DNA of 64,000 nt, taken from the NCBI RefSeq assembly GCF_025506335.1, contig NZ_JANZYO010000005.1, positions 402,453-466,452 of the forward strand, read 5' to 3'. Positions 1,015 to 47,715 of the stretch are shown here, piece after piece. The number at the start of each line of letters is the position of its first letter. Within the stretch, counting starts at the first letter, position 1. The DNA is from Mumia quercus (GTDB lineage Bacteria > Actinomycetota > Actinomycetes > Propionibacteriales > Nocardioidaceae). The notes under the pieces are model-generated. The model was not told the DNA's origin. It searched no databases and saw only the letters and a program-made list of their open reading frames with translations. The translations under genes were made by a program, and so were the position numbers.

Positions 1015-2473
1015 TCCGAAGGGTTTCATGAAGACACCGCGCCAGGTTGCGCAGCGGCGGCCGGTCGAGGAGCGGATCCACGACTGGAACGAGGTGTATC
1101 CGGGCACGCCGGGGCGCGCGCTGCTGCCGATCATCACCGAGCAGGCCGGTCGGTGCATGGACTGCGGCATCCCGTTCTGTCACAACGGGTGCCCGCTCGG
1201 CAACCTCATCCCGGAGTGGAACGAGCTGGTCTGGCGTGACGACTGGGAGGCGGCGCTTTCCCGTCTGCACGCGACCAACAACTTCCCCGAGTTCACCGGT
1301 CGCCTCTGCCCGGCGCCGTGCGAGACGGCGTGCGTCGTCGGGATCAACCGCGAAGCGGTGACGATCAAGAACGTCGAGGTGTCGATCATCGACCGCGCCT
1401 GGGACGACGGCCGGGTCGCGCCCGAGCCGCCCGAGTGGCTGACCGGCAAGACCGTGGCCGTCGTCGGCTCGGGGCCGGCCGGTCTCGCCGTCGCGCAGCA
1501 GCTCACGCGTGCGGGGCACACCGTCGCCGTCTACGAGCGCGACGACGCGCCCGGGGGACTGCTCCGTTACGGCATCCCTGAGTTCAAGATGGAGAAGTCG
1601 GTCCTCGACCGCCGGATCGAGCAGATGGAGGCGGAGGGCACGATCTTCCGCACCGGTGTCGCCGTCGGCGTCGACCTGACCGGCGAGGAGCTGCGTAGCC
1701 GCTACGACGCGGTGGTCCTCGCGACCGGCGCGACCGTACGCCGCGACCTGCCGACGACCGGCCGCGACCTCGGCGGCATCCACCAGGCGATGGAGTACCT
1801 CCCTCAGGCCAACCGCGTCGCGCGAGGCGAGACGGTCGACGACCAGATCACCGCGGAGGGCAAGGACGTCGTCATCATCGGCGGCGGGGACACCGGCGCC
1901 GACTGCCTCGGTACGGCGATCCGCCAGCAGGCCCGTTCGATCACGCAGCTGGAGATCATGCCGCGTCCGAGCGAGGAGCGTCCAGATCACCAGCCGTGGC
2001 CGACGTACCCGATGATCTACCGCGTCGCCTCGGCCCACGAGGAGGGCGGCGAGCGGGTGTACGCGGTCTCGACGCAGGAGTTCCTCGGCGACGACGACGG
2101 CAACGTCCGTGCGCTGCGCGTGGTCGAGGTCGAGATGGTCGACGGCCGCTTCCAGGAGGTCGAGGGGAGCGCCCGCGAGATCCCGGCGCAGCTCGTGCTC
2201 CTGGCCATGGGCTTCACGGGTCCGGAGACCGACGGAGTCGTCGCGCAGCTGGGCGCGGGGCTCGACGACCGGGGCAACGTCGCCCGCGACTCCTCGTACA
2301 TGACCGACGTCGACGGCGTCTTCGTGGCCGGTGACGCCGGCCGTGGGCAGTCGCTGATCGTCTGGGCGATCGCGGAGGGACGTGCGTGCGCCGCGGGCGT
2401 CGACGCGTACCTCAACGGCTCGACCAACCTCCCTGCACCGATCCCGCCGACCGCACGCCCGCTGGTGGTCTAA
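1007..2473 (+). CDS. gltD: Glutamate synthase small subunit (NADPH, FAD, Fe-S)
   Basis: This 488-residue protein has the normal family length. An N-terminal cysteine cluster ([17 protein letters not shown], then CPAPCETAC) binds 4Fe-4S centres. An FAD Rossmann motif follows ([17 protein letters not shown], about residue 150), then an NAD(P)H-binding motif ([13 protein letters not shown], about 285) and the C-terminal [18 protein letters not shown] signature. It passes NADPH electrons to GltB. The GTG start at 1007 lies inside the end of gltB, giving a tight operon. Confidence 0.97.
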
Positions 2474-2505
2474 CACCTCCACCCCGCCCGCGGGGTGAAA
2501 GCAAG

Positions 2506-2534
2506 GTGCCCCTTTCCGCCCCGGAAAGGGGCAC
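2506..2534. terminator. Hairpin terminator after gltD
   Basis: A perfect 12-bp stem, gtgcccctttcc (2506-2517) with ggaaaggggcac (2523-2534), encloses a 5-nt loop. No T-tract follows. A smaller stem (accccg/cggggt, 2481-2496) lies just upstream. The position directly after gltD and before the pyk promoter fits an intrinsic actinobacterial-type terminator. Confidence 0.75.
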
Positions 2535-2646
2535 ATTGCTGTTCACCACGCGGACGCGGGGCGGGGAGCGTCCCACCGTTCGAGAAATTCTGCTTACGAA
2601 ACAACAAACTTCGCGGGTCGGGTCGCGCCCGGCAGGCGGGGCGCTC

Positions 2647-2658
2647 TAGGGTTGACGA
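2647..2658 (+). promoter_or_regulatory. -10 box of a probable leaderless pyk promoter
   Basis: TAGGGT at 2647-2652 is followed by 6 nt and then the GTG start of pyk. A transcript starting 6-7 nt after the box would begin at the start codon. There is no Shine-Dalgarno sequence in front of the GTG. Confidence 0.55.
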
Positions 2659-4116
2659 GTGCGTAGAGCAAAGATCGTCTGCACCATCGGTCCTGCCGTC
2701 TGGTCTGAGGACAAGATCCTCGAGCTGGCCCGTGCCGGCATGAACGTCGCCCGCCTCAACCTCAGTCACGGCGACCACGCCACCCACGACCGCTCGTTCG
2801 AGTGGACCCGCCACGCGGCGAAGCTCCTCGACGAGCCCATCGCGGTGCTGGCCGACCTCCAGGGCCCCAAGATCCGTCTCGGCCGCTTCGCGTCGGGGCC
2901 TGTGTCGCTCGCCGTCGGGGACACCTTCACGATCACGACGGACGACGTACCCGGTGACGGCGAGCGCTGCTCGACGACGTACGAAGGACTCGCCGGCGAC
3001 GTCAACGTCGGCGACACCCTCCTCATCGACGACGGGAAGGTCCGGCTTCGTGCGACCGACGTCACCGACACCGACGTCGTCACGGTGTGCGAGGTCCCAG
3101 GCGTCCTGAGCAACAACAAGGGGATCAACCTCCCCGGCGTCAGCGTCAGCGTGCCCGCGCTGTCGGAGAAGGACCGCGACGACCTGCGGTGGGCCCTGCG
3201 CACCGGCGTCGACTTCATCGCCCTGTCTTTCGTGCGGCGCGGTGCGGACGTCGAGGACGTGCACGCGATCATGGACGAGGAGGGCGTGCGGCGGCCGGTG
3301 ATCGCGAAGATCGAGAAGCCCCAGGCTGTCGAGAACCTCGACGACATCATGAATGCCTTCGACGGCGTGATGGTGGCGCGCGGTGACCTCGGCGTCGAGC
3401 TGCCGCTCGAGGACGTGCCGATCGTCCAGAAGCTGATCGTCGAGAAGGCCCGGCGCAACGCGAAGCCCGTGATCGTCGCGACGCAGATGCTCGAGTCGAT
3501 GATCTCGGCGCCGCGGCCCACCCGCGCCGAAGCCTCCGACGTCGCCAACGCCGTCCTCGACGGCGCGGACGCGGTCATGCTCTCCGGCGAGACGAGCGTG
3601 GGGGAGTTCCCGATGGAGGCCGTCTCCACCATGGCCCGCATCGTCGAGAGCACCGAGGAGCACGGGCTGCCGCGGATGGCGGCCTACCACTGGGACCCGA
3701 AGACACGCAGTGGCGTCATCGGTCGCGCCGCCTCGCAGATCGCCCAGAGCGTGGGGGCGAAGTACCTCTGCGCGTTCACCACGTCGGGGGACAGCGCGCG
3801 CCGGATGACGCGCTACCGCTCGACCGTTCCCGTGCTGGCCTTCACACCGGACCCGATCGTGCGCAACCAGCTGGCGCTGTCGTGGGGAGTCCAGTCCTTC
3901 CTCGTCCCCGAGGTCGAGCACACGGACATGATGGTGCTCCAGGTCGACCGCGCGCTGCTCGAGATCGGGCAGTGCTCCGAGGGCGACGAGGTGGTGATCG
4001 TCGCCGGCAGCCCGCCAGGGATCCCCGGCTCCACCAACGCGTTGCGCGTCCACCGCATGGGCGACGCGATCAAGGGCATCTCTCCCGCGTACACGCGGCC
4101 CCTCGTCCGCGACTGA
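2659..4116 (+). CDS. pyk: Pyruvate kinase
   Basis: This 485-residue protein is the usual length. It opens with RRAKIVCTIGPA and NVARLNLSHG, the phosphoenolpyruvate-side motifs. The signature IAKIEKPQAVENLDDI (about residues 215-230) contains the catalytic lysine, followed by the metal-binding VMVARGDLGVELP. The remainder is the C-terminal allosteric domain. It transfers phosphate from PEP to ADP in the last step of glycolysis. GTG at 2659 is chosen because the conserved N-terminus begins there and a -10 box lies 6 nt upstream. The 3' end is convergent with, and overlapped by, the extended livF frame. Confidence 0.97.
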   Translation: MRRAKIVCTIGPAVWSEDKILELARAGMNVARLNLSHGDHATHDRSFEWTRHAAKLLDEPIAVLADLQGPKIRLGRFASGPVSLAVGDTFTITTDDVPGDGERCSTTYEGLAGDVNVGDTLLIDDGKVRLRATDVTDTDVVTVCEVPGVLSNNKGINLPGVSVSVPALSEKDRDDLRWALRTGVDFIALSFVRRGADVEDVHAIMDEEGVRRPVIAKIEKPQAVENLDDIMNAFDGVMVARGDLGVELPLEDVPIVQKLIVEKARRNAKPVIVATQMLESMISAPRPTRAEASDVANAVLDGADAVMLSGETSVGEFPMEAVSTMARIVESTEEHGLPRMAAYHWDPKTRSGVIGRAASQIAQSVGAKYLCAFTTSGDSARRMTRYRSTVPVLAFTPDPIVRNQLALSWGVQSFLVPEVEHTDMMVLQVDRALLEIGQCSEGDEVVIVAGSPPGIPGSTNALRVHRMGDAIKGISPAYTRPLVRD

Positions 4117-5029
4117 CGCCACCTCCGCTGCCGCGCCGCGTGGAGTTTGCCACGCTGGCGTGGCAAACCGCGGTTGGCGGGGCAAGCATGCCGCGCCAAC
4201 CGGGCTTTCCCGCGTTGGCGTGGCAAACCGTGGGGGAAGGGCGGCCTCCTGTATGGACGAGAGCCGGGCCCCCCCCCCGGGGGGGGGGGGGCGGCGCGCC
4301 TCGGTCGACCGGGGCGGAGGCGTAGCCCGGGGAGGCCTCCGTGACCGCGGGATCGGCCAGCAGCTCGGCCCCGGTCCCGGAGCGCGTGATGCGTCCGGTC
4401 TCGAGGACGTACGCCCGGTCGGCGCGGCTGAGCGCCTGGTTGGCGTTCTGCTCGACGAGCAGGACGGTGATGCCCTGATCGTTCACCTGCGAGATGATCG
4501 AGAAGATCTGGCGGATGAACTGCGGTGCCAGCCCCATCGACGGCTCGTCGAGCAGGAGCACCTTCGGCTCGCCCATCAGCGCGCGTCCGATGGCCAGCAT
4601 CTGCTGCTCACCGCCCGACAGCGTGCCGCCCGCCTGCGACTCGCGCTCCTTGAGGCGAGGGAACAGGTCGAACACCCGGTCGAAGCTCTCGTCGACCGAG
4701 CCGCGGCTCTTGAGCGCGTACGTCCCCATCTCGAGGTTCTCGCGGACGGTCATGGCGGGGAAGATGCCCCGGCCCTCCGGTGTCAGCGAGATGCCGCGGA
4801 CGACGCGCTTGTGCCCGGCGAGCTTGGAGATGTCCTCGCCCTCGAACTTCACGCTGCCCGACGACAGGTTGAGCAGGCCCGCCAGCGCGCGCATCGTCGT
4901 GGTCTTGCCGGCGCCGTTGGCCCCGATGAGGGTGACGATCTCGCCCTCGTCGACGGTCAACGAGATGCCGTGCAGGGCCTGGATGCGGCCGTAGTGGACA
5001 GAGACGTCGTTGATCTCGAGCAACGCCAC
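4070..5029 (-). CDS. livF: Branched-chain amino-acid ABC transporter ATPase LivF, with anomalous C-terminal extension
   Basis: Residues 1 to about 235 are a standard LivF ATPase: Walker A GANGAGKTT (about 37), the signature LSGGEQQMLAIGRALM, Walker B KVLLLDEPSMGLAP and the H-loop region TVLLVEQNANQAL. Family members normally end soon after the motif corresponding to DPAVTEA. Here the frame continues for about 80 low-complexity residues through the homopolymer and palindromes and stops only inside pyk antisense sequence. The GTG start at 5029 lies 1 nt after the livG stop. It powers import of Leu/Ile/Val-type substrates together with LivG. The core is certain; the true C-terminus is not. Confidence 0.9.
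   Translation of the reverse strand: MALLEINDVSVHYGRIQALHGISLTVDEGEIVTLIGANGAGKTTTMRALAGLLNLSSGSVKFEGEDISKLAGHKRVVRGISLTPEGRGIFPAMTVRENLEMGTYALKSRGSVDESFDRVFDLFPRLKERESQAGGTLSGGEQQMLAIGRALMGEPKVLLLDEPSMGLAPQFIRQIFSIISQVNDQGITVLLVEQNANQALSRADRAYVLETGRITRSGTGAELLADPAVTEASPGYASAPVDRGAPPPPPRGGGPALVHTGGRPSPTVCHANAGKPGWRGMLAPPTAVCHASVANSTRRGSGGGVSRGRGAACTRERCP
4145..4202. repeat. Two adjacent palindromic (REP-like) hairpins between pyk and livF
   Basis: The first hairpin is gtttgccacgc (4145-4155), a 2-nt centre and gcgtggcaaac (4158-4168), a perfect 11-bp inverted repeat. The second is cggttggcg (4171-4179) paired with cgccaaccg (4194-4202), continued after one mismatch by ggca/tgcc. The block ggcgtggcaaaccg recurs just downstream at about 4217-4230. 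The pattern resembles an intergenic repetitive palindrome cluster. It may also terminate the converging pyk and liv transcripts. Confidence 0.6.
4269..4291. repeat. C10-G13 homopolymer palindrome
   Basis: Ten C (4269-4278) run straight into thirteen G (4279-4291), flanked by GC-rich bases. It can fold as a pure GC hairpin or G-quadruplex and is a probable slippage or assembly-error site. It lies within the C-terminal extension of the livF frame. Confidence 0.8.
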
Positions 5030-5030
5030 G

Positions 5031-5906
5031 TCAGTCTTCCTCTCCGAGGTAGGCGGCGATGACCGTGGGGTCGTTGCGGATGTCCTTGGGGAGCCCGTCG
5101 GCGATCTTCTTGCCGAACTCCAGGACGACGATCCGGTCGGTCACGCCCATCACGAGCCGCATGTCGTGCTCGATGAGCAGGACCGTGTAGCCGTCCGCGC
5201 GGATGGTCCGGATGAGCTGCATGAGCTCTTCCTTCTCCGCGGGGTTGAAGCCGGCGGCGGGCTCGTCGAGGCACAGCAGCTTGGGGTCGGTCGCGAGGGC
5301 ACGGGCGATCTCGAGACGGCGCTGGTAGCCGTACGGGAGCGCGCTGGCCTGGACCGCCGCCTTGTCGGCGATCCCGACGAACTCCAGCAGCGCCATACCA
5401 CGGTCGATCGCGCTCTTCTCCTCGCGGTAGAGCCGCGGGGTACGGAAGAGCGACCCCCACACGCCGACCTTGTGGCGGGCGTCGAGGCCGACGACGACGT
5501 TCTCCAGCGCGGTCATCTCGCCGAAGAGCCGGACGTTCTGGAACGTACGGGCGATGCCGCGGCGGGTGATCTTGTGCTGCTTGCTGCGGCCGATCGGCTC
5601 TCCCTCGAGGAGGACCTGGCCCGAGCTCGGACGGTAGACGCCCGTCATCGCGTTGAAGCAGGTCGTCTTGCCTGCACCGTTCGGGCCGATGAGCCCGAGG
5701 ATCTCGCCGCGCTTGATGTCGAACGTGACGCTGTCGAGCGCCGTGAGGCCGCCGAAGCGGACCGTGAGGTCCTGGATCTCGACGAGCTTGTCACCGACGT
5801 CGACGGCGATCTCGCGCTCCGCGGCGGCGAGCTGCGCCACCTCGGAGTCGAGCGGCGGCGGCGCGTCCGGCTTGGGCGTCGACGGGGAACTGGCCTGGTC
5901 GGTCAC
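5031..5906 (-). CDS. livG: Branched-chain amino-acid ABC transporter ATPase LivG
   Basis: This 291-residue ATPase has Walker [10 protein letters not shown], the LivG-type insertion ([20 protein letters not shown]), the short signature region [17 protein letters not shown] and Walker [15 protein letters not shown]. About 45 extra residues precede the ABC domain. The GTG start at 5906 overlaps the livM stop (GTGA) and is preceded by aaggagg at good spacing. A longer upstream open frame exists but is antisense shadow of livM. Confidence 0.95.
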
Positions 5907-42237: not shown

Positions 42238-42642
42238 ATGGGCACGATCGTCGTGGGATACGTCCCCAAGCCCGAGGGCCGAGCGGCTCTCGCACGAGCC
42301 GTCGAGGAGGCGAAGCTTCGGGGAGCGCACCTCGTGGTGGTCAACTCCCACCGCGGTGGCCGGGACTTCGACGACGAGGACGCCGTCAAGACCGAGGAGC
42401 AGCTCGCGGAGGTGCGCGCCCAGCTCGCGGACTCCGGCGTCGACTCCGAGGTGCGCCAGCTGGTCCGCGGCATGGACCCGGCCGACGACCTCGTGAAGGT
42501 CGCCAACGAGACGGGCGCCGACTTCATCGTGATCGGCCTGCGCCGCCGGTCGCCGGTCGGCAAGCTCATCCTCGGCAGCAACGCCCAGCGCGTCCTCCTC
42601 GATTCGTCCTGCCCGGTCCTCGCGGTCAAGGCCAGCAGCTGA
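42238..42642 (+). CDS. Universal stress protein family
   Basis: This 134-residue single-domain UspA protein starts TIVVGYVPKPEGRAALARAVEEAKLRGAHLVVVNSH and carries the ATP-binding signature FIVIGLRRRSPVGKLILGSNAQRVLLDSSCPVLAVK. The start ATG follows gggagg. TAGTGT (about 42203-42208) is a likely -10 box, giving a leader of about 30 nt. Confidence 0.92.
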   Translation: MGTIVVGYVPKPEGRAALARAVEEAKLRGAHLVVVNSHRGGRDFDDEDAVKTEEQLAEVRAQLADSGVDSEVRQLVRGMDPADDLVKVANETGADFIVIGLRRRSPVGKLILGSNAQRVLLDSSCPVLAVKASS

Positions 42643-42864
42643 CCGGACGACGCCGCGCGCTCACGCATGGCCGCGGCGTAAGCGGCAACCGTGCACCAAA
42701 GGTCGCGTTTCGGTCACGGTCCGCGACTCGGCCGAAGGCGGTTCGTGGTTCGCTCGGGGCGCGTGGCACACTGGACGGTGCCGCGGTTGACGGGAGGCCG
42801 GTTGATCGCGCCCTCGAACGCTCGCAGCGACCTTTTGGTCCGTACACCCCAAGGGAGTCTCCTC

Positions 42865-44160
42865 GTGGTTTCAGCGCCCGACAGTCGAGCACGTAAGACA
42901 GTCGTAGCGGAGGCTGGTTCCCGCACCACCGTCAAGGCGACGACCGAGTCGGGCGCCAAGGCGCCTGCGAAGAAGGCTGCTCCGGCGAAGAAGGCAGCCG
43001 CCAAGAAGGCTCCTGCCAAGAAGACGGCGGCCAAGAAGACCGCCGCGAAGAAGGCAGCCGACGTCGACGTCACCGCCAACGCGATCATCGTCGACGAGAA
43101 CGGCAAGAAGGTCCTCCCCGACATCTCGGACGAGGTCTTCGAGAAGGACCTGAAGACCGACCCGACGCTCAAGGAGGACGAGGCGTCGGGCTTCACGATC
43201 TCGGCGGCCGACGACACCGACGAGCCCGAGCAGCAGGTCACCGTCGCCGGTGCCACCGCTGACCCGGTCAAGGACTACCTCAAGCAGATCGGCAAGGTCT
43301 CGCTGCTCAACGCCGGCCAGGAGGTCGAGCTCGCCAAGCGGATCGAGGCCGGGCTCTTCGCCGAGGAGCAGCTCGCCACCGCCAAGCGGCTCTCGGAGTC
43401 GATGCGCGAGGAGCTCGAGTGGATCGTGGAGGACGGTCGCCGCGCCAAGAACCACCTCCTCGAGGCCAACCTGCGCCTCGTCGTCTCGCTGGCCAAGCGC
43501 TACACCGGCCGCGGCATGCTGTTCCTGGACCTCATCCAGGAGGGCAACCTCGGTCTGATCCGTGCGGTCGAGAAGTTCGACTACACCAAGGGCTTCAAGT
43601 TCTCGACCTACGCGACGTGGTGGATCCGCCAGGCGATCACCCGCGCGATGGCCGACCAGGCCCGCACCATCCGCATCCCCGTCCACATGGTCGAGGTCAT
43701 CAACAAGCTGGCCCGCGTCCAGCGCCAGATGCTGCAGGACCTCGGTCGCGAGCCCACTCCGGAGGAGCTCGCCAAGGAGCTCGACATGACGCCGGAGAAG
43801 GTCGTCGAGGTCCAGAAGTACGGCCGCGAGCCGATCTCGCTGCACACCCCGCTCGGCGAGGACGGCGACTCCGAGTTCGGCGACCTCATCGAGGACTCCG
43901 AGGCGATCGTCCCGGCCGACGCCGTGTCGTTCACGCTCCTGCAGGAGCAGCTCCACGCGGTGCTCGACACGCTGTCGGAGCGCGAGGCGGGCGTCGTCTC
44001 GATGCGCTTCGGCCTCACCGACGGCCAGCCCAAGACGCTCGACGAGATCGGCAAGGTCTACGGCGTGACGCGCGAGCGGATCCGCCAGATCGAGTCCAAG
44101 ACGATGAGCAAGCTGCGTCACCCGTCGCGCTCGCAGGTGCTGCGCGACTACCTCGACTGA
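42865..44160 (+). CDS. sigA: Primary RNA polymerase sigma factor SigA/RpoD
   Basis: This 431-residue protein has an N-terminal region 1.1-like tail that is Lys/Ala/Pro-rich ([19 protein letters not shown], about residues 33-60) and then acidic. Region 1.2 is [34 protein letters not shown]. Region 2 is [59 protein letters not shown]. Regions 3 and 4 follow with [40 protein letters not shown]. It is the housekeeping sigma factor. GTG 42865 follows aagggag at 7 nt. Its last 22 bp are duplicated at 45066-45087 (see the mobile element). Confidence 0.96.
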
Positions 44161-44161
44161 G
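44140..44161 (+). repeat. Left copy of 22-bp direct repeat (attL-like, end of sigA)
   Basis: ctgcgcgactacctcgactg plus ag, covering the last seven codons of sigA, the stop and one base. It is identical to 45066-45087. Confidence 0.9.
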
Positions 44162-44311
44162 CCTGCGAGCCCGCTGGACTGTTTCCGCAGGTCAGAGTGG
44201 CTTTACGTGCGCGGCGGACCCACTTCGCGGTCTCTATGGCGTTGTGAGTCCAGATATTCAGAGCACGCCCGGTTCGCGCAACGAGGCCGTCCGGCTCTCC
44301 GCTCTCCGCCA

Positions 44312-44331
44312 GGATTCCGTGCACGGAATCC
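44312..44331. repeat. 20-bp perfect palindrome inside the element
   Basis: ggattccgtgcacggaatcc reads the same on both strands with no spacer. It lies 46 nt beyond the stop of the element's gene. It could be an operator for a dimeric regulator, a recombinase arm site or a cruciform. Confidence 0.6.
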
Positions 44332-44376
44332 GAACGGATGATCAGACAACTGAGCTTGTTCGTCGGTGCCAGGTGG

Positions 44377-44877
44377 TCAGGGAACGGCAGGAGGTTCAGC
44401 TTCAGCCGCGGAAGCAATCCGCTCATCGAGGCGCACATTGAACGCCGCGAGTTGCGTGGGGTCCTTGAGGTAGTACGTGCACGCCGCCGTGAGAATTGAA
44501 AGGGTGGCGAAGAGGGGGTGCGGGTTGGCCTCGGGCCCCGACTGAAGCAGCAGTGGCATCTGTTCCTTCACCGCATTGGCCAACTTGTTGAGCGCCTCGG
44601 CGAACGCTGGCGAGGCGGCCTCGATCTCGATGGCGAGCGTGTGTGCGCTCATCACGACGTCCCAGGCTGCGTTGATCGCTTGAGGAGGGTCGCTCGCGGC
44701 GAGCTGGCCGGGGCGACGCGCGGCGCGGCTGAGGGCTCGGACTTCACCGATGGTCTCGATGTCCATGGCGAGCCTACGCTCGGCGCCCCAGGTGAGACGA
44801 GCGCCGAGGAGAGCGAAGCCACCACCAACGACACCTCCGATGACAGCACCGACGAGTGAGATCACGAAGTCGCTCAT
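44377..44877 (-). CDS. Unknown membrane-anchored protein carried by the element
   Basis: This 166-residue protein has an N-terminal glycine-zipper-like membrane helix (VISLVGAVIGGVVGGGFALLGARLTW). An alpha-helical cytoplasmic part follows, AERRLAMDIETIGEVRALSRAARR, with a second helix-rich region to AAFNVRLDERIASAAEAEPP. No family is recognised. ATG 44877 has a TAGGTT -10 box 6 nt upstream (44889-44884), the same leaderless layout as chromosomal genes, which supports real expression. The location inside the repeat-bounded insert makes it the likely cargo. Confidence 0.68.
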   Translation of the reverse strand: MSDFVISLVGAVIGGVVGGGFALLGARLTWGAERRLAMDIETIGEVRALSRAARRPGQLAASDPPQAINAAWDVVMSAHTLAIEIEAASPAFAEALNKLANAVKEQMPLLLQSGPEANPHPLFATLSILTAACTYYLKDPTQLAAFNVRLDERIASAAEAEPPAVP

Positions 44878-44883
44878 GCCGCG

Positions 44884-44889
44884 AACCTA
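44884..44889 (-). promoter_or_regulatory. -10 box of the element gene
   Basis: TAGGTT on the minus strand, 6 nt before ATG 44877; leaderless layout. Confidence 0.5.
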
Positions 44890-45065
44890 GACCCCGCAGA
44901 GTGCCGGTGGCCCGCCCGTGGTCGCGCGTGTCGGTTCGACCGCGCGGCGAAAAGGTTCCGACCTAGGTGCCGTGCCCAGGGCAGGATTCGTGGTGGCATG
45001 GCAATGCCGCGCACTGACAGAGTCGCTGGTGTCCAGCGATTCTGTACGGAGTTGAGTCGTGGAGA

Positions 45066-45087
45066 CTGCGCGACTACCTCGACTGAG
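45066..45087 (+). repeat. Right copy of the 22-bp direct repeat (attR-like)
   Basis: Identical to 44140-44161, the sigA 3' end. Here it is not in frame with any gene. The sigA-type terminator at 45110-45146 follows after 22 nt. Confidence 0.9.
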
Positions 45088-45109
45088 ACGCAGCCCTCCA
45101 GGACGACCA

Positions 45110-45146
45110 CGAGCGCCGCGTACGGGATCGCCGTACGCGGCGCTCG
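45110..45146. terminator. Strong terminator hairpin, probably the original sigA terminator
   Basis: cgagcgccgcgtacgg (45110-45125) pairs perfectly over 16 bp with 45131-45146, loop gatcg. It now lies between the element and the phytase gene, and would follow sigA directly without the insertion. It also terminates the converging phytase gene. Confidence 0.8.
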
Positions 45147-45172
45147 CGTCTGTCGCCGTCGCCGTTCCGCGG

Positions 45173-46485
45173 TCAGCGCCGGCTGACAGCGCCCCAGTCG
45201 ACGAGCTTGAAGTTCGTGCTCGTCCGCGGTTGGCCGTCCGCCCCCGTCTCGTACGGGGTGGCGTCGCCGTCGTGCACGACCAGCAGGCCGCGCGGGAAGG
45301 CGCGACCGAGCGGTGTGGTGACGACCGCGGCGCCGTCGCTGTGCTGGACGCCGTCGGTCGCCCGCGAGTCGCCGATCGCGATGGTGCGCTCCGGCTTCCA
45401 GCCCCGGTCGATCCGGAAGGTGGCAAAGGTGCTGTCGCCCTGGCTGGAGGCGACGAGCGTCCGCCGGCCCCGGGCCCGTAGGCGATCGCCAGGCCTTCTG
45501 CGTCGGCGCGCAGCCGGTGCCCGCCGGAGGGCGAGGTGCCGGTGACCGTGCACTCCTCGGTCTCCGGGTCGTACGAGGCGGGCGCGCCGAACTCGCGTAC
45601 GCGTTCGACGAGCGTCGGGCGGCCGAGCCCGTGCCGGCCGAGCGGGATCCGCCAGACGCCGACGTCCTCCTGCGCCGCGTACAGCACGTCCTCGTCGACG
45701 TCGACGACCATGCCCTCGACCTGGGGGCCTTCGCCGGGTTCCCCGCACGGGCTCCACGTGCCGCCCTCGGCGAGGGTGAAGGTGCTAGGGAGGACGACGC
45801 GGTCGACCGGCGCGTACGAGACGCCGCCGCGTGGCGTCACGACGACCCGGAACAGCCCGACGGTCGTCCGGTTGCGCTGACTCACGACGACGTACGGCAG
45901 TCCGCCGGCGGGATCAGGGCGGACCGTCAGCCCGTACCCGGTGTTCTGGTCCTCGACGGAAGCCTCGTCGGGCGCGAAGAGTCGCGGCGCGGAAGTGTCG
46001 GTCACGTCGCGCAGGACCTCTCCGCCTCGCGACGCGTCGGGCGTGAGCGCGTAGAAGCGCAGGCGGTCCCGCCCCCGGTCGCTGACGACGGCGAGGTCCG
46101 TACGAGTGCCGCCCAGATGGACGTCCAGGGCAAGGTCGACGTTGTTGAACCGGCTCGACTCCAGCCCCTCAGCGGGGGCGGCGGGCGCCGCGACGTGCTG
46201 CACGAGCCGGCCGCGCAGGTCGTACGCCGCGAGCCCGCCGTTCTTCAGGGTGCCGAGGACGAGACTGCGCGAGCGGTCTCGTGGGGCGACCCAGATGGCC
46301 GGGTCGTCGGCGTCGGCGAAGCCGCCCGGCTCGTCGTCGAAGACCGCGGGTGTCTCCGACACCGCGGCGATTGGCTGGACAGCATCGGGCGAGTGGTCGG
46401 CCGCGGCGGCACCGGCGGCGGTGAGCACGGACGCCGCCCCGACGAGACAGACGGCGAGGCTGCGAGAGCGGGGTGGTCGGGCCAC
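45173..46485 (-). pseudogene. Secreted 3-phytase (beta-propeller), frameshifted
   Basis: The reading frame starts with a signal peptide (SRSLAVCLVGAASVLTAAGAAAA). It then shows phytase features: ADADDPAIWVAPRDRSRSLVLGTLKNGGLAAYDLRGRLVQHV, RFNNVDLALDV, EDQNTGYGLTV, EGMVVDVDEDVLYAAQEDVGVW and DAEGLAIAYGPGAGG. After that (about 45455-45480) the homology moves to another frame: TLVASSQGDSTFATFRIDRGWKPERTIAIGDS up to NFKLVDWGAVSRR and the stop at 45173. One base is missing relative to an intact gene, in a run of G and C. It is either a recent pseudogene or a sequencing error. Phytases release phosphate from inositol phosphates outside the cell. Confidence 0.82.
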
Positions 46486-46607
46486 GGGAGGCTCCTGGGG
46501 TGAGGTGGTTCGGTCGGCAACACCCTGGTGCTGTCCGGCAACCGGCTGGTGGCGACGGCATGTCGTCGCGGCGACGTCTTGATGACCCGCTGGTTGCGCC
46601 GCGCGGA

Positions 46608-46619
46608 TAGCCTGAACGC
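46608..46619 (+). promoter_or_regulatory. -10 box of a probable leaderless rhomboid promoter
   Basis: TAGCCT at 46608-46613, 6 nt before ATG 46620; no ribosome-binding site. Confidence 0.55.
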
Positions 46620-47231
46620 ATGTCCTCGACGAGCTCGCCGACGCGCCGGTCGTACCTCGGCCCGGTGGTCCCGGTGCTGGTCCTCCTCGGCGTGATGTGG
46701 CTGCTCGAGATCATCGACGCGGTGCCGGGTGTGTTCCTGGACCAGCACGGCATCCGGCCGCGGGACACCGACGGCTTGTACGGGGTGGTGGCGGCGCCGT
46801 TCCTGCACGGCGGGTTCGACCACCTGATCGCCAACACGACGGCGTTCCTCGTCCTGGGCACGCTCCTCGCCTACACCGCCCGCTCCCGCTTCTGGCCGGC
46901 GACGCTCGGCATCGTCCTGCTCGGCGGACTGGGCACGTGGCTCATCGGCGCGCCGTACACGGTCCACATCGGCGCGAGCGGCGTGATCTACGGCTACGCG
47001 GCCTTCCTCGTCGTGTGGGGGATCGTCACGCGGCGGGTGGTGTCCGTGCTGGTCGCGGTCGTCGTGGCGGTGCTGTACGGGGGGATCGTCGGCGGGATCC
47101 TGCCGGGCCAGGCGGGCGTCTCGTGGGAGGGCCACCTGATGGGCGCGCTCGCCGGCATCGTGATGGCGTGGTGGCTCGGGCGCCGCGACAACCGCGAGCG
47201 CCGGGCACAGCGGCGGACCCAGGCGTACTGA
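46620..47231 (+). CDS. Rhomboid family intramembrane serine protease
   Basis: This 203-residue protein has six hydrophobic segments. FLHGGFDHLIANT (His63, Asn72) supplies the oxyanion side, HIGASGVIYG contains the catalytic Ser120, and WEGHLMGALAG contains the catalytic His172. All key residues are present, so it should be active and cleave membrane-spanning substrates. Confidence 0.92.
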   Translation: MSSTSSPTRRSYLGPVVPVLVLLGVMWLLEIIDAVPGVFLDQHGIRPRDTDGLYGVVAAPFLHGGFDHLIANTTAFLVLGTLLAYTARSRFWPATLGIVLLGGLGTWLIGAPYTVHIGASGVIYGYAAFLVVWGIVTRRVVSVLVAVVVAVLYGGIVGGILPGQAGVSWEGHLMGALAGIVMAWWLGRRDNRERRAQRRTQAY

Positions 47232-47232
47232 C

Positions 47233-47715
47233 TCAGCTCGCGACGAGCCCGGCCACCCACACGGTGGTCGACAGCAAGCCGCCGGTGAGCTCGATGAGGA
47301 TCGAGAGCCCGGCCGCCTTCATCGCGTGCTTGGTCGCCGTCCAGGCGGCGGAGTGGATGCGGAGCCGGTTCAGCTCCCAGGCGTAGACGCCGAGGACGAA
47401 GCCGACGAACAGCCCGACGAACGGGATCACGAAGAACCCGACCACCCCCAGCACGCCACCGGCCAGCATCGCCTTGCCGGGGACGCCGGCCTCCTTGAGG
47501 CGCTTGCCGGGGACGAGGTACTGCACGACCAGCGTCAGCGCGTAGATCACGGTGCACACCGCGAAGACGACCCACCCTGTCGTGGTCCCGGTGGCCACCG
47601 CCCACACGCCGATGGCGGCCCAGATGAGCAGCGAGCCCGGCAGGACGGGGACGACGATCCCGGCGAGCCCGACGAGGATGGCGAGGCCGACGAGGACGGT
47701 GCCGAGGGTTCCCAT
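47233..47715 (-). CDS. DUF456 family membrane protein
   Basis: This 160-residue protein starts GTVLVGLAILVGLAGIVVPVLPGSLLIWAAIGVWAV. It has the glycine-rich module AMLAGGVLGVVGFFVIPFVGLFVGFVLGVYAWE, typical of DUF456. Four to five transmembrane segments; function unknown. It converges with the rhomboid gene, 1 nt apart. Confidence 0.85.
   Translation of the reverse strand: MGTLGTVLVGLAILVGLAGIVVPVLPGSLLIWAAIGVWAVATGTTTGWVVFAVCTVIYALTLVVQYLVPGKRLKEAGVPGKAMLAGGVLGVVGFFVIPFVGLFVGFVLGVYAWELNRLRIHSAAWTATKHAMKAAGLSILIELTGGLLSTTVWVAGLVAS

Follow-up and report, generated by a model that had tools for sequence, protein, structure and literature searches.

How did 904 bp of DNA come to lie directly behind an intact housekeeping sigma factor gene, bracketed by two identical copies of that gene's last bases, and what is it? 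We address this question for a 64,000-nucleotide stretch of Mumia quercus DNA, referred to as the window throughout. The features that define the problem are the gene and the two repeat copies, which we call cores.

42868..44160, plus strand: sigA, housekeeping sigma factor of 430 amino acids with Sigma70 regions 1.2, 2, 3 and 4
44140..44161, plus strand: left core copy (attL core), exact 22-bp direct repeat
45066..45087, plus strand: right core copy (attR core), exact 22-bp direct repeat

The sequence CTGCGCGACTACCTCGACTGAG occupies 44140-44161 and 45066-45087, and it is the sole 22-mer that occurs twice on the plus strand of the 64-kb window. Across the 4.1-Mb genome its only two matches with up to two mismatches are again the two cores. 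An earlier note on this locus had reported the identical recurrence, and its uniqueness in the window bears that out, but several of its details need trimming. The sigA stop codon lies at 44158-44160, and the left core comprises the last 21 bp of the gene plus one base rather than its final 22 bp. Likewise, the insertion is repeat-bounded as described, but the DNA between the cores (44162-45065) measures 904 bp, and the 926 bp given for it is the distance from core start to core start. The different base composition attributed to the segment also amounts to a modest difference only: the insert's G+C content of 64.9% compares with 67.1% for sigA and 70.9% for the window. Here the attachment site is the 3' end of sigA, and the gene has been rebuilt intact.

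Among the loci compared, the closest by sigA (G103, 97.7% protein identity) has an empty site. Window positions 42500-44162 align to positions 1384-3044 of its locus (L035) at 92.7% identity and 45066-47242 to positions 3022-5233 at 80.2%, and these two flank alignments overlap across the core and one base only. The window flanks overlap in the same way in G104, where the site is again empty and the core single. A further genome, G101, aligns to the end of sigA and not directly beyond, and therefore tells us little on the junction. The right flank of the insert holds a feature that fits this picture of interrupted DNA.

45110..45146, plus strand: strong hairpin of 16 perfect pairs with a 5-nt loop (z -5.18), probable native sigA terminator pushed downstream

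In G103 a similar hairpin stands directly after sigA (z -5.81), and comparison of the two loci suggests that the window's hairpin is probably the native sigA terminator displaced by the insert. Our terminator scan, which requires a T-run, did not list it. Both the strong terminator that had been noticed after the right copy, at the place a sigA terminator would take without the insert, and the single-core empty site that would be expected of relatives are thus matched in G103, and the empty site in G104 as well.

A 22-bp repeat could in principle arise with no integrase at all, if a transposon or replication slippage had duplicated this stretch of sigA around unrelated DNA. The stretch does seem capable of duplicating, for G102 carries a 23-bp tandem duplication of the sigA tail (L034 3165-3209), the sequence of which suggests slippage between CCTGCG repeats. 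Against such an origin for the window insert, the repeat listing of the window contains no inverted-repeat pair joining the two insert ends, the left end of the insert is homologous in register to the left ends of other elements, and the same core flanks integrase-bearing elements in other genomes (both described below). A 22-bp target duplication would also be unusual for a transposon. We regard an origin of this kind as very improbable. Two second cores elsewhere were considered as elements and rejected: the one in G102, only 23 bp from the first, and one in G026 (L038), where both copies follow sigA coding sequence and represent a duplicated gene end, a second, partial sigA 3' end lying 3.4 kb from the first.

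The core is present within two mismatches in 298 of 341 genomes of the bacterial family (the window's own included). The sigA tail is thus well conserved, and an element that restores the gene on docking finds its site in almost all potential hosts. Nine genomes other than the window's have two cores bracketing other DNA at sigA (G065, G069, G134, G155, G258, G278, G314, G338 and G105, the left core copy of the last having four mismatches), and four further bracketed elements were found at sigA in G123, G289, G188 and G125. Measured from left core start to right core end, these range from 665 bp (G278) and 1,424 bp (G069) to 15.3 kb (G289), 17.1 kb (G123) and 35 kb (G134), with the remaining eight of the 13 between 6.1 and 10.3 kb. 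The G105 element is 9.5 kb long and resides in a member of the same genus, Mumia xiangluensis (NZ_WJYO01000002.1, the contig with the integrase match). In G161, G177, G204 and G299 the second core matches are on a different contig or at a great distance. Attachment at the sigA 3' end is therefore recurrent in this family and not a one-off. The use of a primary sigma factor gene had been called unusual; site-specific use of the gene stands, its singularity does not. Larger elements with the same core and an integrase, of which the one in G105 is an example, do exist elsewhere. The proposal that site-specific integration rebuilt the end of the target gene likewise gains support from the empty sites, the common core and the left-end homology.

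Several occupants of the site resemble the window insert in lacking an integrase. Neither the 1.4-kb mini-element of G069 nor the 0.66-kb element of G278 at sigA shows any trace of an integrase at E<=1e-4. The first 52 bases after the core of the G069 mini-element are common to the left end of an integrase-bearing element on another contig of the same assembly (the loci are L040 and L109); the two contigs may not share one cell, because that assembly is 70% complete. Left ends following sigA with no close integrase match were also found in stretches from G053, G119, G301, G061 and G070; some of these contigs end early, and the G070 stretch contains, 8-9 kb further downstream, two matches to recombinases that are distant (29-30% identity). 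Together with the G069 mini-element, G278, G134 and the window, these five stretches make nine, so that integrase-less forms at sigA are not rare. Other junctions were seen as well. On one G004 contig (L112, G004:C195, reverse strand position 2500) a right end is followed by the core and then a left end, an arrangement that points to an excised circle or a tandem array. G077 (L177, reverse strand position 1031) has another junction of this kind, the core of which is diverged, and the stretch retrieved there contains no sigA match.

The G105 element encodes a tyrosine integrase of 307 aa (Phage_integrase, 7.9e-27) that starts at base 138 from the left core start. Searches with this protein gave matches at E<=1e-40 in 48 of the 341 genomes and none at that threshold in the window's own genome. 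We looked at one integrase locus from each of 30 of these 48 genomes, and in addition at G065, G050, G004, G140 and G157. In 13 of the 30 loci examined the 3' end of sigA was found a short distance 5' of the integrase, and G050 and G065 carry partial cases of the same linkage. An order-level sample of 391 genomes, some of them from the family, had 17 with a match at E<=1e-70; five of the matches fall outside the family, and two of these (G442, G420) are at sigA. Of 16 integrase loci in genome contigs, seven are at sigA: those of G105 and G155, and additional ones from Actinotalea, Glutamicibacter, a Micrococcus MAG, Demequina (with an apparently broken frame) and an Actinomycetota MAG. Among three IMG/VR loci, one (L121) contains both cores at a distance of 9.6 kb. 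When 48 integrases were placed in a tree, the 21 sigA-linked rows, among which the Streptomyces phage Kromp was counted by virtue of its core, needed four label changes as compared with 15.8 in shuffles. As placed by this tree, the sigA-linked integrases are clustered and do not form one clade. Near them the tree has a clade made up of 12 related integrases from sites other than sigA (L085, L088-L091, L093, L095, L097-L099, L117 and L119), and ARAGORN found a tRNA-Met in two of these 12 loci.

The cargo of the full elements gives an indication of what kind of element they are. Two libraries were each searched with ten proteins, some of which gave no match. We recognised a tape-measure protein in the G258 element, major capsid proteins in those of G125 and G314, a terminase and a single ORF with portal, protease and capsid domains in that of G123, and a topoisomerase-like protein in that of G105. 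Tape-measure-like ORFs in G123, G188, G289 and G338 were recognised by eye only. The structural modules of four of the sigA-docking elements (L044, L104, L110 and L046) differ, being tape measure, capsid, or portal-protease-capsid with terminase. Because capsid, portal, terminase or tape-measure genes occur in the four full elements tested, these resemble phage satellites, and their gene content suggests that the full sigA elements may be phage satellites or reduced prophages. We infer that they would be satellites needing a helper. Phage Kromp (MH744420.1) has a tyrosine integrase 57% identical to that of G105, and carries TGCGCGACTATCTCGACTGAG just upstream of it (L140 2374-2394), with sequence around it that by eye is element-like. 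This core is probably the attP of the phage, which would then use hrdB/sigA as attB.

Whether the window insert belongs with these elements can be judged from its ends.

44162..44261, plus strand: element left end, recognised with profiles made from the left ends of other elements; it contains the motifs GCAGGTCAGAG (44187-44197) and AGTCCAGATATT (44247-44258), both conserved
45045..45066, plus strand: 22 bp up to the TGCG of the right core, the last base being the first base of the right core copy; weakly like related right ends, 14 of 22 positions matching G105

All left-end profiles were built without the window. One made from 17 other left ends matches window positions 44166-44260 at E=2.1e-5, with the next best match at 9.2, and a model from 20 other left ends matches 44167-44261 at E=1.4e-5. 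With the latter, the window's left end is the best of three matches in its own genome (9e-4). This model, R1, also finds a match at E<=0.1 in 276 of 341 genomes, several with bit scores like that of the window; the score alone is thus not striking genome-wide, and what counts is where the match lies, its strand and register, and how much of the model it covers (95 of 118 columns). Judged by these profiles, the left end of the insert is homologous, in register, to the left ends of integrase-bearing elements. The right end is recognisable weakly. Its 22 bp rank 124th of 127,956 positions with G105 in the profile and 440th without it, which makes for a weak comparison; an earlier 24-bp version ranked 21st of 127,952 positions, and the right-end profile search produced no match at the window's right end. 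The left ends of relatives may also contain a hairpin, with z <= -2.39 in six of nine folded singly. This hairpin is absent in the window copy (z 0.34), and RNAalifold gave no consensus fold for 20 left ends. We offer a conserved terminator in the left ends of these elements as a suggestion only.

Between its ends the insert holds one reading frame of interest here.

44377..44877, minus strand: 166-aa ORF with one N-terminal transmembrane stretch predicted from hydropathy, no detected relatives, coding status uncertain

Its length is unremarkable, since 93 of 300 shuffles of the insert contained an ORF of 166 aa or longer. Its codon score of 0.015 is the best of the six frames, falls below those of all 32 host training ORFs (lowest 0.234), and is near that of the topoisomerase-like gene of G105 (0.013). 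Coding support for the ORF is therefore weak. Among the 341 family genomes, 17 matched the ORF at E<=0.01, one being the window's own; the best of the others, at 0.00125, was considered as a relative and taken as noise. Phages, plasmids, genome contigs and viral contigs yielded no relatives beyond weak matches, Pfam gave TPP_enzyme_N at E 0.05 only, PADLOC gave SspC at 0.036 only, and no relatives appeared in PHROGs or NCBIfam. The earlier note had spoken of one orphan gene, and the ORF is indeed without detected relatives, but the codon score and the shuffles leave its status as a gene uncertain. When the middle 780 bp of the insert was searched against 197 relatives, 33 matched at E<=0.001, and apart from the window none of the matches exceeded 57 bases, which looks like chance. 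No protein of the other elements matched the insert better than E 0.004, and no phage structural or packaging genes were found in the window copy. With neither the middle nor the element proteins giving convincing matches, the comparison does not trace the insert base by base to a full element from which it would have arisen by deletion. The insert contains no trace of an integrase (best tblastn E 0.05), in keeping with what had been noted of the segment and with the search of the genome at E<=1e-40.

We consider it very likely that the insert is an internally deleted, integrase-less relic of a family of phage-satellite-like elements that dock at sigA. In this reading, a tyrosine integrase would have recombined the attP of an element with the 3' end of sigA (attB). 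As the attP would have borne a copy of the last ~21 bp of the gene, sigA would have been rebuilt and its old tail pushed to the right end of the element. The parent family would comprise mostly elements of 6-17 kb in Actinomycetota with the integrase just inside the left end, and the window copy would have lost the integrase and nearly all of the body, so that what remains is a left arm, a right arm in degraded form, the two cores and a single ORF of uncertain status. We infer that its small size was made by deletion and not by arrival as a small element, and that it is probably immobile now.

The insert might instead be a non-autonomous mini-element that still moves, the integrase of a sigA-targeting phage or satellite acting in trans on its cores and arms, in which case it would be a tiny satellite with one cargo ORF. 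The identity of its two cores is consistent with such a life, as are the other short integrase-less forms at sigA (1.4 kb in G069, 0.66 kb in G278). So are the first 52 bases of the G069 mini-element, which equal those of an integrase-bearing left end in the same assembly, but the incompleteness of that assembly weakens this last point. The right-arm motifs of full elements are, moreover, missing or weak in the window, and the 197 relatives searched contain no second copy of the middle part. We think continued mobility unlikely. Of the two origins proposed earlier, a decayed island and a satellite mobilised in trans, the former, in the shape of an internally deleted island, is favoured by the poor conservation of the right arm, by the missing left hairpin and by the lack of a related integrase at E<=1e-40 in the genome. 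In either case the element is a relic or a non-autonomous form, an incomplete member of a sigA-targeting family. It is likewise doubtful that it is a live minimal satellite of less than 1 kb, moved by any incoming sigA-targeting recombinase and encoding a small membrane protein that might interfere with rivals for the site. Were this true, a single lineage would extend from a 58-kb phage by way of satellites to passengers of less than a kilobase, the window insert being at its small extreme, and the housekeeping sigma gene would be their common dock.

Three publications provide points of comparison for the insert and its family. Candidate mycobacterial PICIs are defined by integration machinery and a major capsid gene (PMC10654092). 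The sigA elements of G125 and G314 are likewise small, with integrase and capsid, whereas the window copy lacks both and a tape-measure protein was recognised in the G258 element; the main text of that paper nowhere uses the words sigma or sigA. Genomic islands of the kind catalogued by Islander split and restore their target gene, classically a tRNA gene (PMC4383910), and the family described here is like them in its tyrosine integrase, its restored target and the displaced fragment marking the far end. It differs in that the target is a protein-coding sigma gene, and the window copy has lost its integrase. An integrase clade of HE-PICI targets prophage late genes (PMC10111431). Satellite integrases are tied to protein-coding targets in both cases, but theirs act inside genes of the helper prophage, whereas the sigA elements sit at a housekeeping gene of the host, and the integrases linked to sigA do not form a single clade. 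Kromp has an integrase and a sigA-tail core in common with the elements, but is a 58-kb phage and not a small element. In the portions of the literature covered we found no description of sigA, rpoD or hrdB as an attachment site, which does not prove that none has been published.

Within the sigA-docking family the window copy itself looks ordinary. At one extreme of its relatives stands an isolated phage and at the other are relics, with small elements that carry phage structural genes in between; the shrinkage and death of satellites could be studied along this natural series. The family also offers new integration sites for actinobacterial genetics. Downstream of the insert we also observed a phytase-like gene (44887-46485, minus strand) that matches only positions 13-145 of the 375 in the Pfam Phytase profile and is overlapped by a 194-aa ORF in a different frame; the phytase-like gene may be frameshifted.
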